From positions 1-29,538 of the IMG/VR virus record IMGVR_UViG_3300002914_000002: a DNA stretch of 29,538 nucleotides; one strand, given 5' to 3'. Of this stretch, positions 1,152 to 7,816 are shown piece after piece. The position numbers and the translations under genes were made by a program. The number at the start of each line of letters is the position of its first letter. The stretch's first letter is position 1. This stretch comes from a virus. The notes below the pieces were generated by a model, which was not told the origin of the DNA, did no database searches, and saw nothing but the letters and a program-made list of their open reading frames with translations.

Positions 1152-2837
1152 TCAAATCCCTAGCGATTCTTGCTTAGTTGCTTCCCTGGCAGCTTTGCGA
1201 GCTTCCTTGGCTTTCTTTTCTTTCTCTTTCCTCTTCATGTATGCATCGATTAAATCTGAAGCTTCTCCCTTGGTCATCTCATCGGTGTAGGGTATTTTTT
1301 TCCAATTCATCATGTTCTTCTGGGCTTCAGTGATCAGATCGGCTCTTCTAGGACTTGGATGAACTTTATCTAGCCAGTGAACTGATTTGGGCTCTGCCAG
1401 GATCTTGCGAGCTTCTTTTTCAGCTTCAACCTGAGCCCAATCGATAGGAAGTGGGTTTTCAGAGAGGTATGTTGCATTGTCGCTTGCAGTGTTGTAAGGC
1501 GCTCGTTTGAAAAGCACATAGTATTGCTCAGGATTATTTCTGGAAGGTGTGAGAGCTATTTTGTGTTTCTCTGCTCCAACCTCCAGTAAGAATGCTCCAT
1601 TTGGCAACTCTTTCCATTCAAGCTTCTCGAATAAGTCAATATGAACATCCTGCAAGCGTTTCTCTTTAAGCTTGCGAACTTGGATTTGCCTATCCTCATT
1701 TTCACACTTCTCACGTTCTAAAGCTTCTAGTAATGTCTCGTTATCATTAAGGTGTTTGACAAGTACCTTTTTAAGGTTTTGAGGTGATAATCGATGATTA
1801 AGACAATTATCAGTTATGTCTAGTAGAACACATTCTTTCTTTCCAGGAGCTAATCGAAGTCCTCTTCCAAACATTTGTTTGAAAAGTCCTGCGCTTTGCG
1901 TTGGGCGTGCTCCAATAATAACTTCTACGAGGCACTCATCCCATCCTTCAGTCAACACCATCACGGTACAGAGCACTTTAATTATTCCTAGATGGAAGTC
2001 ATGGTAGATACGCTTGCGTTCTTCGATGGGAGTCGTACCTTTGATGACAGCAGCAGGTACACCTTGCTTGTTAAAAGCAGAGCAAAGGTCCTCTGCATGG
2101 ATGACAGTAACACAAAAGCATGCCGCTCTTTTTCCGTTTGTATGTTCTTGATATTTCTGAACAATGAGGTTATTCCTTGCAGGTGTATTAACTGCATTGT
2201 TTAATTCTCCTTCATTGTAGTCTCCCATTGAAGTTGTTACATTATCAAGGCTAATGTGTGTTTGGATGGCAATAGCCTTGAAATTGCAAAGATAACCTTC
2301 TACAACCATATCAATGATATTTTTGCTGAATAGTGGTTGTTTGCCTTTTAAGATATCTTTTTTGTCAAGTCTTTCAGGAGTGGCAGTTACACCTAGCACA
2401 AAAGCATCTGGCAAGATTTCAAGTACTTTTTGATATGACTTGCTTGCAATGTGATGTGCTTCATCAACTATGATGAGAATGAATCCCATTCTTTGTAGCT
2501 TTTCTAGGTGTTCCGGTCGACTGATAGTTTGGATGGATGCTACTGTTATTTCACATCCATACTCATGAACACCTGAGCCAACTTTTCCTATAATGGCAGT
2601 AGGTTGGATCATTCGGTACTTGTCAGCGGCTTGCCCAAGTAATTCGTCTCTATGTGCTATTATAAGCACATTTCCTTTGTGCTCTTTTTGTATGTCGTGT
2701 GCTGCTTTTCCAAAGCAGATCGTCTTCCCGCCACCTGTGGGAATAACTATTATTTCGTATCCATTCTTATCTTTCTTGTATGCATCAAGAACACGTTTAA
2801 CACATTCCTCTTGATAAGGACGTAATTCTATAGACAT
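1152..2837 (-). CDS. SF2 DNA helicase (DEAH type, RAD25/type III Res-like)
   Basis: A 561-residue superfamily 2 helicase. An RPYQEE Q-motif-like start is followed by Walker A PTGGGKT (residues 33-39), DEAH (125-128), TATP (151-154) and a second RecA-like domain with the arginine-finger motif QMFGRGLR near residue 330. The C-terminal 200 residues are lysine/glutamate rich and not assigned. Family members use ATP to unwind or translocate on duplex DNA; phage versions usually serve replication, recombination or origin opening. The start has an excellent site (AGGGAGG). It lies 12 bases after the HTH gene at 2850, so both form one operon from the promoter at 3069-3097, divergent from the SSB operon. 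The helicase assignment is firm; the exact role is inference. Confidence 0.93.
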   Translation of the reverse strand: MSIELRPYQEECVKRVLDAYKKDKNGYEIIVIPTGGGKTICFGKAAHDIQKEHKGNVLIIAHRDELLGQAADKYRMIQPTAIIGKVGSGVHEYGCEITVASIQTISRPEHLEKLQRMGFILIIVDEAHHIASKSYQKVLEILPDAFVLGVTATPERLDKKDILKGKQPLFSKNIIDMVVEGYLCNFKAIAIQTHISLDNVTTSMGDYNEGELNNAVNTPARNNLIVQKYQEHTNGKRAACFCVTVIHAEDLCSAFNKQGVPAAVIKGTTPIEERKRIYHDFHLGIIKVLCTVMVLTEGWDECLVEVIIGARPTQSAGLFKQMFGRGLRLAPGKKECVLLDITDNCLNHRLSPQNLKKVLVKHLNDNETLLEALEREKCENEDRQIQVRKLKEKRLQDVHIDLFEKLEWKELPNGAFLLEVGAEKHKIALTPSRNNPEQYYVLFKRAPYNTASDNATYLSENPLPIDWAQVEAEKEARKILAEPKSVHWLDKVHPSPRRADLITEAQKNMMNWKKIPYTDEMTKGEASDLIDAYMKRKEKEKKAKEARKAAREATKQESLGI

Positions 2838-2849
2838 ATAACCTCCCTG

Positions 2850-3041
2850 TTATGCTGTTTCTTTGTTTTTCTTGTAAGCTTCCCATTCTTGTTTATTAAT
2901 GAGATATTTGACTTTGCTTACTTTTAAAGCAATTAAGTTACCTCGTTTAATCTCATCTCGAATGAACTGAGCATTCATGCCAAACTCACTAGCTGCCTCT
3001 TGGCAAGAGAGATAGTTTGATCGATCAATAGTATTCATCAC
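2850..3041 (-). CDS. Excisionase/MerR-like helix-turn-helix protein
   Basis: A 63-residue protein with the layout of HTH_17/excisionase-type DNA-binding domains: a short lead-in, the helix LSCQEAASEFG, a turn, the recognition helix NAQFIRDEIKRGNL, a beta wing (IALKVSKVKYLI) and a terminal EWEAYKKNK helix. It has a strong ribosome-binding site (AAAGGAG, 7 bases before ATG). It is first in an operon with the helicase. Proteins of this size bind short DNA sites as recombination directionality factors or as repressors/activators. No integrase is in the window, so a regulatory or replication-origin role is equally likely. Confidence 0.8.
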   Translation of the reverse strand: MMNTIDRSNYLSCQEAASEFGMNAQFIRDEIKRGNLIALKVSKVKYLINKQEWEAYKKNKETA

Positions 3042-3068
3042 TTTGCTCCTTTCTATGAACTAATCAAG

Positions 3069-3097
3069 ATTATACCATACTAATCATAATCATTCAA
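3069..3097 (-). promoter_or_regulatory. Promoter for the HTH-helicase operon
   Basis: Minus strand: TTGAAT (3092-3097), 17-base spacer, TATAAT (3069-3074), with an extended -10 (TGG before TATAAT). It is back to back with the promoter for the SSB operon, the -35 boxes lying only 5 bases apart. Confidence 0.8.
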
Positions 3098-3102
3098 TAC
3101 TC

Positions 3103-3131
3103 TTGACAATTATTCGATACTAGTCTATACT
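3103..3131 (+). promoter_or_regulatory. Promoter for the SSB/early operon
   Basis: Plus strand: TTGACA (3103-3108), 17-base spacer, TATACT (3126-3131). The start would be near 3138. ATACT words at 3097, 3117 and 3127 overlap or flank it and match the motif in the 284-385 control region, suggesting a shared regulator. Confidence 0.85.
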
Positions 3132-3143
3132 GATGGTAGTTAA

Positions 3144-3206
3144 GGTTACATGGCACAAAAAGTTGTAGACCGAGTCTTGTTTTGAGCCTAATCGTGCCAT
3201 GTAACC
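3144..3206 (+). promoter_or_regulatory. Long hairpin in the SSB mRNA leader
   Basis: GGTTACATGGCAC (3144-3156) and its perfect complement GTGCCATGTAACC (3194-3206) can form a 13-base-pair stem. It closes a 37-base loop that contains a small inner hairpin (AGAC CGA GTCT). The stem begins about 6 bases after the predicted transcription start and ends 25 bases before the ATG at 3232, so it takes up most of the leader. It has no U-tract, so it is not a terminator. It could be a translational operator, a 5' stability stem or a riboswitch-like element. T4 gp32 autoregulates through structured leader RNA, and the gene here is gp32-like. Confidence 0.7.
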
Positions 3207-3231
3207 AACGATTAAATTAGAAGTCCTAGCC

Positions 3232-4149
3232 ATGTCTAGGCAAGAAAGAAAGAAAATGCAAAGTTTACGACACATGCCAGCAGAAGAGGCTTTTGACAGA
3301 GCAACCGAAAGAGCAGAAAAGGCTGCTGAAGCAGCGAAAGCAGCTAAGGCTGGTGGAAAAAAGCCTTTATTCTTATGGTTGAAACCAGGGCATAAAGCTT
3401 TAATCCGTCCTCTATGCCCTCGATTGTCAGGCGGCGTCAAGTTGATGAAGCACAATCAGTGGAATAAGGACAGAGATTTGAACATCTCATCAATTTGTGC
3501 CTGTGAATTAGAGCCAGCAAAGCCTTGTCTCTATTGCGAGATGGCAAAGGAGAACAAGAAGTTGACTGCTGGTGAGTGGTTCTTTTTGCCTGTCTATGTA
3601 TATCAGGTGACAGATTCGAAAAATAATATTGTCACGTATGAAGAGAAGCAAGAAGATGGTTCTAAGGTAGAGAAAGAAGTAAAAGGAGTTGTCCGACTTC
3701 TAGAATTGACTCCGTTTGGTAGAGTTGGACCTCTCTTCCATTACTTCAGGAAGTTTCCAAATGATCCTGATAATTGTTTGCTTAATGAGTGCGATTTTAC
3801 GATTGAGCAGATTGGTGAAGGAAGTGAAAAGAACTTCCAGCCTATTCACAAGAACGCAAAGCCTATGCATGACAGGATCAAGGCTATATCAGCCCAGGTG
3901 ACGGAACAGTCAATGTATGAGCGGATCATCGCATTTTGTCCGCCCAAGGTTTCAGAGGATAATAGCAATCCTTTTGAGGATGCCCCCCGCAAGGGGAAAG
4001 CTTCAGATGATAATCCTTTTGAGGAGAACATGTCAGATAGTGATTTTGAGTTGACTAAGAATAATGGCAAAGGAGTAGACTTTGGAAAGCATCTTAAATC
4101 TGCTCCTGTAGCAGAAGAGCCTCTTGACGACACCATCACTGATTGGTAA
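3232..4149 (+). CDS. gp32-like single-stranded DNA-binding protein
   Basis: 305 residues. A basic, Ala-rich N-terminus (residues 1-45) precedes a core with His74, Cys89, Cys99 and Cys102. The 10- and 3-residue Cys spacings equal those I recall for the zinc site of T4 gp32 (His64, Cys77, Cys87, Cys90). The core GEWFFLPVYVYQVTD region is beta-rich, as expected for an OB fold. The C-terminal 70 residues are acidic and Ser/Asp rich with two NPFE motifs and end DDTITDW, an acidic tail with a terminal aromatic residue as in SSB proteins, where the tail recruits partner enzymes. It should coat ssDNA during replication or recombination, together with the helicase and nuclease nearby. The ribosome-binding site before ATG 3232 is weak (TAGAAG), consistent with translational control by the leader; starts at 3256 or 3274 are possible. 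Confidence 0.7.
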   Translation: MSRQERKKMQSLRHMPAEEAFDRATERAEKAAEAAKAAKAGGKKPLFLWLKPGHKALIRPLCPRLSGGVKLMKHNQWNKDRDLNISSICACELEPAKPCLYCEMAKENKKLTAGEWFFLPVYVYQVTDSKNNIVTYEEKQEDGSKVEKEVKGVVRLLELTPFGRVGPLFHYFRKFPNDPDNCLLNECDFTIEQIGEGSEKNFQPIHKNAKPMHDRIKAISAQVTEQSMYERIIAFCPPKVSEDNSNPFEDAPRKGKASDDNPFEENMSDSDFELTKNNGKGVDFGKHLKSAPVAEEPLDDTITDW

Positions 4150-4161
4150 TTTAGATAATTC

Positions 4162-4190
4162 GGGCATAAGTACACACTTATGCCCTTTCC
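4162..4190 (+). terminator. Terminator-like hairpin after the SSB gene
   Basis: GGGCATAAGT (4162-4171) pairs perfectly with ACTTATGCCC (4176-4185) across a 4-base ACAC loop and is followed by TTTCCTTTT. The U-tract is interrupted, so partial termination is likely. That would make the abundant SSB transcript more plentiful than the downstream genes. Confidence 0.7.
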
Positions 4191-5444: not shown

Positions 5445-5699
5445 ATGGAGATTGAACAGAGTAAAACAACTTCAGGCAATCAAATGATTGAATTTGTTGA
5501 TCAATCAGCAAGTGATTTAAGCATGTGGGTAGAAGAGCGTTCAAAGCAAGGAAAAAGTACAAAACTTCTGTTCTTTGATACTGATAATGACTATTTCAAG
5601 TTCACACAGAAGGATATCAAAGCTCTACTGCCCTATCTCCAAAGCTTTACCGAGACGGGACTACTAGAGCCACTCTCCCCCTTGCAAGGGGGAGAGTGA
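5445..5699 (+). CDS. Small hypothetical protein ending in a palindrome-encoded tail
   Basis: 84 residues; the start has AAAGGA 9 bases upstream and lies 4 bases after the nuclease stop. The body (LSMWVEERSKQG, LLFFDTDNDYFKFTQKDIKA) looks like a small alpha/beta domain of unknown family. The last ten residues (EPLSPLQGGE) and the stop codon are encoded by the 28-base perfect palindrome at 5671-5698. The original C-terminus was probably replaced when that element arrived. Function unknown. Confidence 0.75.
   Translation: MEIEQSKTTSGNQMIEFVDQSASDLSMWVEERSKQGKSTKLLFFDTDNDYFKFTQKDIKALLPYLQSFTETGLLEPLSPLQGGE
5671..5698. repeat. Perfect 28-base palindrome, longest copy of the CCCCTTGCAAGGGG family
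   Basis: CACTCTCCCCCTTG followed by its exact reverse complement CAAGGGGGAGAGTG: 14 + 14 bases with no spacer. It encodes the end of the gene at 5445 (L-S-P-L-Q-G-G-E) and lies 11 bases before the ATG at 5710, so its GGGGGAG arm is also the only Shine-Dalgarno-like sequence for that gene, though at a long spacing. Confidence 0.95.
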
Positions 5700-5709
5700 G
5701 CAAATTGCT

Positions 5710-5946
5710 ATGGCTGCTGTAACTAAAGATCCTGTCAAACGCATTGAAGCTATTAATAGCTTGTTTGATAAAGTAAAAAAGGAAGCAGACTACTACAGGC
5801 GTCAATGTGATCAATATATTGATCACATTGCAAATCTTGAAGAATTGATAAAAGATTGGAGTAGTCTTTTTGAAGTTGTTTCGAATTCTACATTGGAAGA
5901 TCTTCAAGAAAAAACATCCAAGCTTTTAGGAGAGGAGACACCATGA
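5710..5946 (+). CDS. Small coiled-coil hypothetical protein
   Basis: 78 residues, helical throughout, with a heptad-like pattern from residue 8 to 50 (IEAINSLFDKVKKEADYYRR, then HIANLEELIKDW). No family recognised. It starts 10 bases after the preceding stop. The only ribosome-binding sequence is the GGGGGAGAG arm of the palindrome, about 15 bases before the ATG, so translation may depend on whether that hairpin is open. It overlaps the next gene by 4 bases (ATGA). Confidence 0.7.
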   Translation: MAAVTKDPVKRIEAINSLFDKVKKEADYYRRQCDQYIDHIANLEELIKDWSSLFEVVSNSTLEDLQEKTSKLLGEETP

Positions 5947-7063: not shown

Positions 7064-7816
7064 CTACACACTTACAGTCTTAACCATCCAGAAATCACTA
7101 GCCAAGTTACTGTCTTGTAGATAGGCATAAGACATACTAAAGTATCCCGTGCCATCAATACCCCATCCAGTTCCCCAACTATTTCTGAATAGAAACCTTT
7201 GCTGACTATCGTCATATCCTACACACAAAACCGCATGGCCGCCGAGCACTGCTTCATCTGGTCCTGGCATCGGGACTATACCATCTTGTGCTACCTGAGC
7301 AGATTCAAAGCTGGTGTAAACACTGAATCCAATCACGAATGGATAGCCAAGGGCTAATACTGTTTTCATCTGCATAATGTTCTGCATAACGCGCTGGTAG
7401 ACAATCGCCCTATCCTTTAGTGCGTCATTGTAGCAGGATTGGGGTGGTTTTGTGGTGAATTGGTTGAGATCGTAGGGCCATTCTAGCTCAGGACAATCCC
7501 CAATCTTGGCAGCCGATTTGATGGTATCTCGAATTGTTGCACCTGCATCCACCGACTTTGTGTTCTTCGATCTGCTGTTGTAGTAGAGGAAAAGATGAGA
7601 GGTTGTGAAGTCAGCTAGCCCTTGGATTTTTCTAGCTACACGAATAGCTGCTCCACCTGCAAAGGATGTACAGCTTCCAAGTTGTCCTTGGTCCTCTACC
7701 GGAGGACACAAATCTCGTAAGTCAACAGATGTTGGCAGTGTAAGTCTTTCGGCGATGGCAAATTTCTTATCTCTATGGTCTGGCAAATCAGGAATGTAAC
7801 CATAATGATGTGTCAT
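7064..7816 (-). CDS. Papain-like (C1A) cysteine peptidase
   Basis: 250 residues with the full papain catalytic set: Gln43 (oxyanion hole) and Cys49 in EDQGQLGSCTSFA, His194 in GGHAVLCVGYDD, and Asn212 in RNSWGTGWG. The start VDLRDLCPPVEDQGQ is typical of mature peptidases of this clan. There is no signal peptide and no long propeptide, so it probably acts in the cytoplasm or is released at lysis. The family hydrolyses peptide bonds; the substrate is unknown. It is the last gene of the late operon, 1 base after the Acb2-like gene, away from the head genes, which argues against a capsid-maturation protease. Roles could be host-protein degradation or cell-envelope attack. Confidence 0.9.
   Translation of the reverse strand: MTHHYGYIPDLPDHRDKKFAIAERLTLPTSVDLRDLCPPVEDQGQLGSCTSFAGGAAIRVARKIQGLADFTTSHLFLYYNSRSKNTKSVDAGATIRDTIKSAAKIGDCPELEWPYDLNQFTTKPPQSCYNDALKDRAIVYQRVMQNIMQMKTVLALGYPFVIGFSVYTSFESAQVAQDGIVPMPGPDEAVLGGHAVLCVGYDDSQQRFLFRNSWGTGWGIDGTGYFSMSYAYLQDSNLASDFWMVKTVSV

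Follow-up and report, generated by a model that had tools for sequence, protein, structure and literature searches.

In phage T4, the single-stranded DNA-binding protein (SSB) gp32 nucleates on a pseudoknot at the 5′ end of its own mRNA and spreads from there along an A+U-rich stretch of UUAAA repeats to the ribosome-binding site (RBS) (PMC535899, PMC3014915). The operator of T4 gene 43, the gene of the DNA polymerase, combines a hairpin placed 5′ of the initiation codon with sequence over the RBS (PMC3014915). Structured RNA is also associated with ssb genes in the STAXI motif, whose tandem pseudoknots lie close to ssb and to other genes of DNA handling (PMC2864571). Besides these motifs, secondary structures at the 5′ terminus are known stabilizers of mRNAs (PMC3997798).

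Here we describe the leader of an ssb gene in a viral DNA of 29,538 nucleotides (IMG/VR record IMGVR_UViG_3300002914_000002; hereafter the window), with features on the plus strand unless marked (−). Like the gene 32 operator of T4 and RB69, it is the leader of a gene for a zinc-containing SSB of predicted gp32 fold, and its 5′ part is folded, after which an A+U-rich stretch leads up to the RBS. It differs from that operator in being folded as a simple long hairpin, instead of a pseudoknot of ~28 nt, and in having this hairpin where a primary transcript is predicted to begin; moreover, it holds an invariant 18-nt block and one UUAAA-type unit, whereas T4 has several units. Like the gene 43 operator, it belongs to a replication gene and has a hairpin ahead of the start codon and an RBS-proximal sequence, but the protein is another one and the hairpin, of variable sequence, lies 50–115 nt upstream. 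We think that the parallel with T4 in position and partner protein is a reasonable analogy.

The ssb gene (3256–4149) codes for a protein of 297 aa, which gave no match when compared with Pfam, PHROG and PDB sequences. The model of its structure reached modest confidence (pLDDT 54.6), and its best structural matches are the RB69 and T4 gp32 cores, with Z 8.6 over 165–166 residues, the next fold being at Z 4.4. The only Foldseek match below E 0.001 was 8gme_A (gp32-Dda), with E 4.4e-4 and a probability of 1.00. In T4 gp32 the zinc-site ligands follow the pattern C-X9-C-X2-C. The corresponding residues H66, C81, C91 and C94, numbered from the start at 3256, are invariant in six homologues, and the spacing of this H-C-C-C set agrees with the gp32 pattern. 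In addition, the homologue L011 matches SSB PHROGs (E 1.8e-6 and 1.7e-5). A preliminary description of this DNA had proposed a gp32-like SSB with a zinc site, and the structural model together with the invariant ligands supports this assignment. No close SSB relatives were found among annotated phages, plasmids and GTDB genome contigs, and a search with the major head protein led to scattered hosts, all under 30% identity. In another part of the window, a gene for a papain-family (C1) cysteine protease was observed at 7064–7816 (−) (Pfam E 5.5e-15).

A homologous leader is present, in one copy per record, in five unclassified IMG/VR phages, namely the window and four contigs (L002, L005, L006 and L008/L009). 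Their comparison served to place the SSB start. The distance from ATG 3232 to the second ATG is 24 nt in the window, and that between the corresponding codons is 25 nt in L002, 29 in L009 and 30 in both L006 and L005, so that in two of the four relatives (L002 and L009) the counterpart of ATG 3232 is not in the SSB reading frame. In L009 the frame from the first ATG stops at a TGA that overlaps the SSB start in the sequence ATGA. Moreover, the Shine-Dalgarno sequence AAAGAGG precedes the second ATG in L005, L006 and L009. ATG 3232 is therefore rejected, the SSB start is ATG 3256 and the leader runs to 3255. The preliminary description, which had taken ATG 3232 as the start, gave the leader hairpin as the interval 3144–3231; its stem coordinates hold, while its end does not, and the weak RBS it had seen at the SSB start is mostly an artefact of the wrong codon. 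Before 3256 there is a purine-rich ribosome-binding region (3243–3255, the position of AAAGAGG in homologues) with the site AAGAAAGAAAGAAA, without a canonical GGAGG. In L009, the AUG that lies in the invariant block opens a frame of 10 codons, MSRQKERGFT (L009:3019–3048), and because its TGA overlaps the SSB start, the two frames may be translationally coupled in L009.

Upstream of the leader, a sigma-70-type promoter with the motif TTGACA-17-TATACT was found at 3103–3131. An equal 11/12 match with a 17-nt spacer exists in L002 and L005, and the promoter is aligned in all five leaders. The stem of the hairpin begins 12 nt past the −10 box in the window, and 11–13 nt past it across the five leaders, so that the hairpin would lie at the very beginning of the ssb mRNA; we infer a transcription start near 3138–3139, ~5 nt before the stem. 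Directly after the gene, an intrinsic terminator is predicted at 4162–4185, and four relatives likewise have, 3′ of ssb, a GGGCA...TGCCC stem that runs into a T-rich tail. With its own promoter and terminator, ssb is apparently a separate transcription unit, and it looks like a monocistronic, strongly promoted gene.

An excisionase/RDF-like HTH gene and a DNA helicase gene lie divergently upstream of ssb. Between the divergent promoters there are several copies of CAATACT/TATACT-like repeats (3059–3131 and L002:3803–3891), which might serve as operators bound by the divergent HTH/excisionase-like protein; CAATACTnTTGACAA across the −35 box and TCTATACT across the −10 box are kept in the five phages. 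L002 carries a fused gene (2756–3499, −) whose product joins a helicase-like N-terminus (MIELFPDQQEALDRVLERYK...) to a protein with HTH_17 and recombination endonuclease VII. It is followed by a helicase gene that is complete but codes for another N-terminus (1108–2763, −), and this arrangement has the look of homing or recombination. An HNH_3 endonuclease also adjoins the helicase gene in the more distant relative L011 (1651–2148, −). A nut/put-like antitermination element in the leader is not favoured, because the divergent transcript has no second copy.

The hairpin is encoded by a perfect inverted repeat with arms of 13 nt, GGTTACATGGCAC at 3144–3156 and GTGCCATGTAACC at 3194–3206, enclosing a loop of 37 nt (3157–3193). 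The perfect 13-bp stem and 37-base loop had been placed exactly in the preliminary description, and if anything understated. This repeat is the longest in the window when arms of at least 10 nt and loops of up to 60 nt are scanned. Two other inverted repeats, at 5671–5698 and 5803–5830, with 12-nt arms and 4-nt loops, are also unusually long for the window. The folding energy of the 121-nt leader is −30.4 kcal/mol, whereas its shuffled versions average −19.1 (z between −3.5 and −3.9), and no dinucleotide shuffle reached the value of the leader. Ten first-order Markov sequences of the window length contained in total one arm of at least 13 nt, that is, ~0.1 such repeats expected per window, and this figure taken by itself would leave some room for a functionless chance repeat. 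That explanation is nevertheless refuted by covariation and positional conservation in the five phages, and we give it a practically negligible probability.

For the covariation analysis, the arms were aligned by anchoring on their conserved ends AAGGTT and ACCA. Pairing is maintained in register, with 96.6% of the cells being standard pairs (12 stem pairs, five leaders), and it falls to 26–53% when the strands are slid out of register. Changes on both sides occur at 6 of the 12 pairs; the cells changed on both sides amount to 10 against a shuffled mean of 3.9, and covariation scores 0.600, compared with 0.337 after shuffling, values that come from a small sample of five related sequences and in which the shuffle counts are not probabilities. 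A covariance model trained on three of the leaders recovered the other two (E 1.8e-12 and 1.5e-10), its alignment reproduced the pairing and the counts of two-sided changes, and its search located exactly one true leader in each of the five phage records, the second match in the window being the same repeat on the opposite strand. The exceptions to Watson–Crick pairing on the sense strand are four G-U cells and one A-C cell, which fits an RNA transcribed from that strand. Two-sided changes at half of the pairs and in exact register are hard to explain otherwise. These changes and the contrast between the register and the slid strands indicate that the hairpin is real as RNA and under selection, and we consider it highly probable that the leader is a genuine conserved RNA element. 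A lack of covariation among the homologues was half of the refutation set by the preliminary description; the outcome is instead strong covariation.

The pairing of the stem is conserved, whereas the sequence of its arms and loop is not; within the loop, ACCRAGYCTT occurs in three of the five homologues and the rest is variable. The resemblance to T4 would be closer if the loop formed a pseudoknot with the RBS or with the linker that follows the hairpin. However, loop–linker and loop–RBS pairing in the five homologues was no better than with shuffled loops (p 0.13–0.83), which gives no support to a T4-type pseudoknot; a p of 0.013 for loop–linker pairing in the distant locus L015 is an isolated value. 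Since the pseudoknot test failed, we do not claim membership in the T4 gene 32 operator class. Thus, the earlier interpretation stands partly, with covariation and a gp32-like zinc SSB in its favour and no support for a T4-like pseudoknot. With arms and loop free in sequence and no pseudoknot, the hairpin itself may be a generic 5′-end element.

An Rfam scan of the window gave no gathering-score match to any family, and relaxed matches in the leader (MIR2619, mir-8, GOLLD) are at chance level. STAXI is likewise a candidate structured RNA associated with ssb genes, but here there is a single hairpin and cmscan returned no gathering-score match. In kind, we place the leader with phage autogenous leaders or 5′ stabilizers, and it is absent from Rfam.

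The more distant SSB contigs form the groups L011/L016, L015 and L022. No such leader was found at the L011/L016 and L022 loci. In L015 there is a 5′ hairpin and the invariant block is absent; this hairpin, non-homologous and of 13 pairs, lies at the 5′ end of a gp32-like ssb leader (L015:1030–1082; z −3.1). A stem that varies in sequence but stays paired, together with an unrelated hairpin at the same place in L015, favours a role at the 5′ end that depends only on shape. The hairpin might then simply shield a plentiful ssb transcript from enzymes that require an unpaired 5′ end (RppH, RNase E or RNase J), with no feedback by the SSB. This is consistent with the position of the stem at the predicted 5′ end in all five phages, with the separate promoter and terminator of ssb and with the precedent of 5′-terminal secondary structures (PMC3997798). 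As in stabilizing stem-loops such as that of papA, a long stem of free sequence lies a few nucleotides from the inferred 5′ end, but here there is an additional invariant block before the RBS. A protecting 5′ hairpin accounts for the stem about equally well as an operator does; it leaves the block near the RBS and the long loop unexplained. Protection alone is, in our opinion, a serious possibility, although a somewhat doubtful one.

The block, CCTAGCCATGTCTAGGCA (3225–3242), was not mentioned in the preliminary description. It is identical in the five phages, whose SSBs are only 43–74% identical to that of the window, and it is present in a single copy per genome. L006 and L009 first surfaced through this conserved DNA block and were found independently by protein searches, so the conservation is not a search artefact. 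Three viral contigs obtained with a relaxed block pattern (L012–L014) have no such leader and are taken as chance. The first 16 nt form the near-palindrome CCTAGmCATGkCTAGG, with 14 of 16 bases palindromic. As RNA, the block could fold into a 5-bp hairpin (CCUAG/CUAGG around CCAUGU), populated at only 16–61% in folding predictions, and since the block never varies, its helix has no covariation evidence. The form in which the block acts may be linear RNA, a hairpin or, at the DNA level, its near-palindrome.

As DNA, the near-palindrome would be an operator for a dimeric protein, for example that of the divergent excisionase/RDF-like HTH gene, and the long repeat would also act as DNA. The symmetry of the site and the presence of that gene speak for this, but the site occurs once per genome, lies ~85 nt downstream of the inferred transcription start and belongs to an invariant block that includes asymmetric flanks, while the wobble pairs in the long repeat favour sense RNA. 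We consider it very improbable.

At the RNA level, an invariant block beside the ribosome-binding site speaks for a factor that binds specifically at this place, and the block is the best candidate for such recognition. The binder could be a host or phage factor other than the SSB that sets the timing of ssb translation, possibly through a switch at the RBS, since the AAGNCCT of some relatives is able to base-pair with an RBS of the sequence AGAGGUUUU. The invariance of the block would fit such a factor, and in L006 and L009 the minimum-energy prediction is a fold that sequesters the Shine-Dalgarno sequence. On the other hand, the window and L002 do not have the AGG required by the switch and no candidate factor is known, and thus we regard this explanation as unlikely. 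By T4 precedent, our guess is that the SSB would be the likeliest ligand of the leader.

Between the hairpin and the block there is an A+T-rich linker, AACGATTAAATTAGAAGT (3207–3224), mostly unpaired by folding prediction. In the window, the leader stretch near the RBS is A+U-rich and A-rich and mostly unpaired, with one UUAAA-like unit, the number found in each leader. The conserved promoter, hairpin and block before a gp32-like protein can be arranged in a leader of two parts. The first would be the long hairpin ~5 nt from the inferred mRNA 5′ end, which would seal this end against 5′-dependent decay and bound a single-stranded stretch. The second would be the A+U-rich single-stranded linker with the 18-nt block, directly upstream of the purine-rich ribosome-binding site. 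Surplus SSB would bind linker, block and ribosome-binding site and block translation, in the manner of gp32 on the gene 32 mRNA, with specificity provided by the downstream block and not by the hairpin sequence. Points against this arrangement are the unsupported pseudoknot, the single UUAAA-type unit per leader, the partly populated and unvarying helix of the block, and the 5′ hairpin of L015, which comes without the block. Both SSB binding with repression and mRNA protection are putative, and the complete mechanism, a 5′ cap hairpin plus an SSB operator by the ribosome-binding site, is proposed tentatively by analogy, with a chance that we would place not far short of even.

There is also an appreciable chance, though well below even, that these phages have a second, independent autogenous operator for an SSB, in which a 5′ hairpin and an invariant block replace the T4 pseudoknot. 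In any case, a covarying leader before a remote SSB of gp32 fold, outside the T4 group, offers a concrete test case for asking whether self-control by SSBs is general and makes use of different RNA shapes, or whether ssb mRNAs merely carry 5′ stabilizers.
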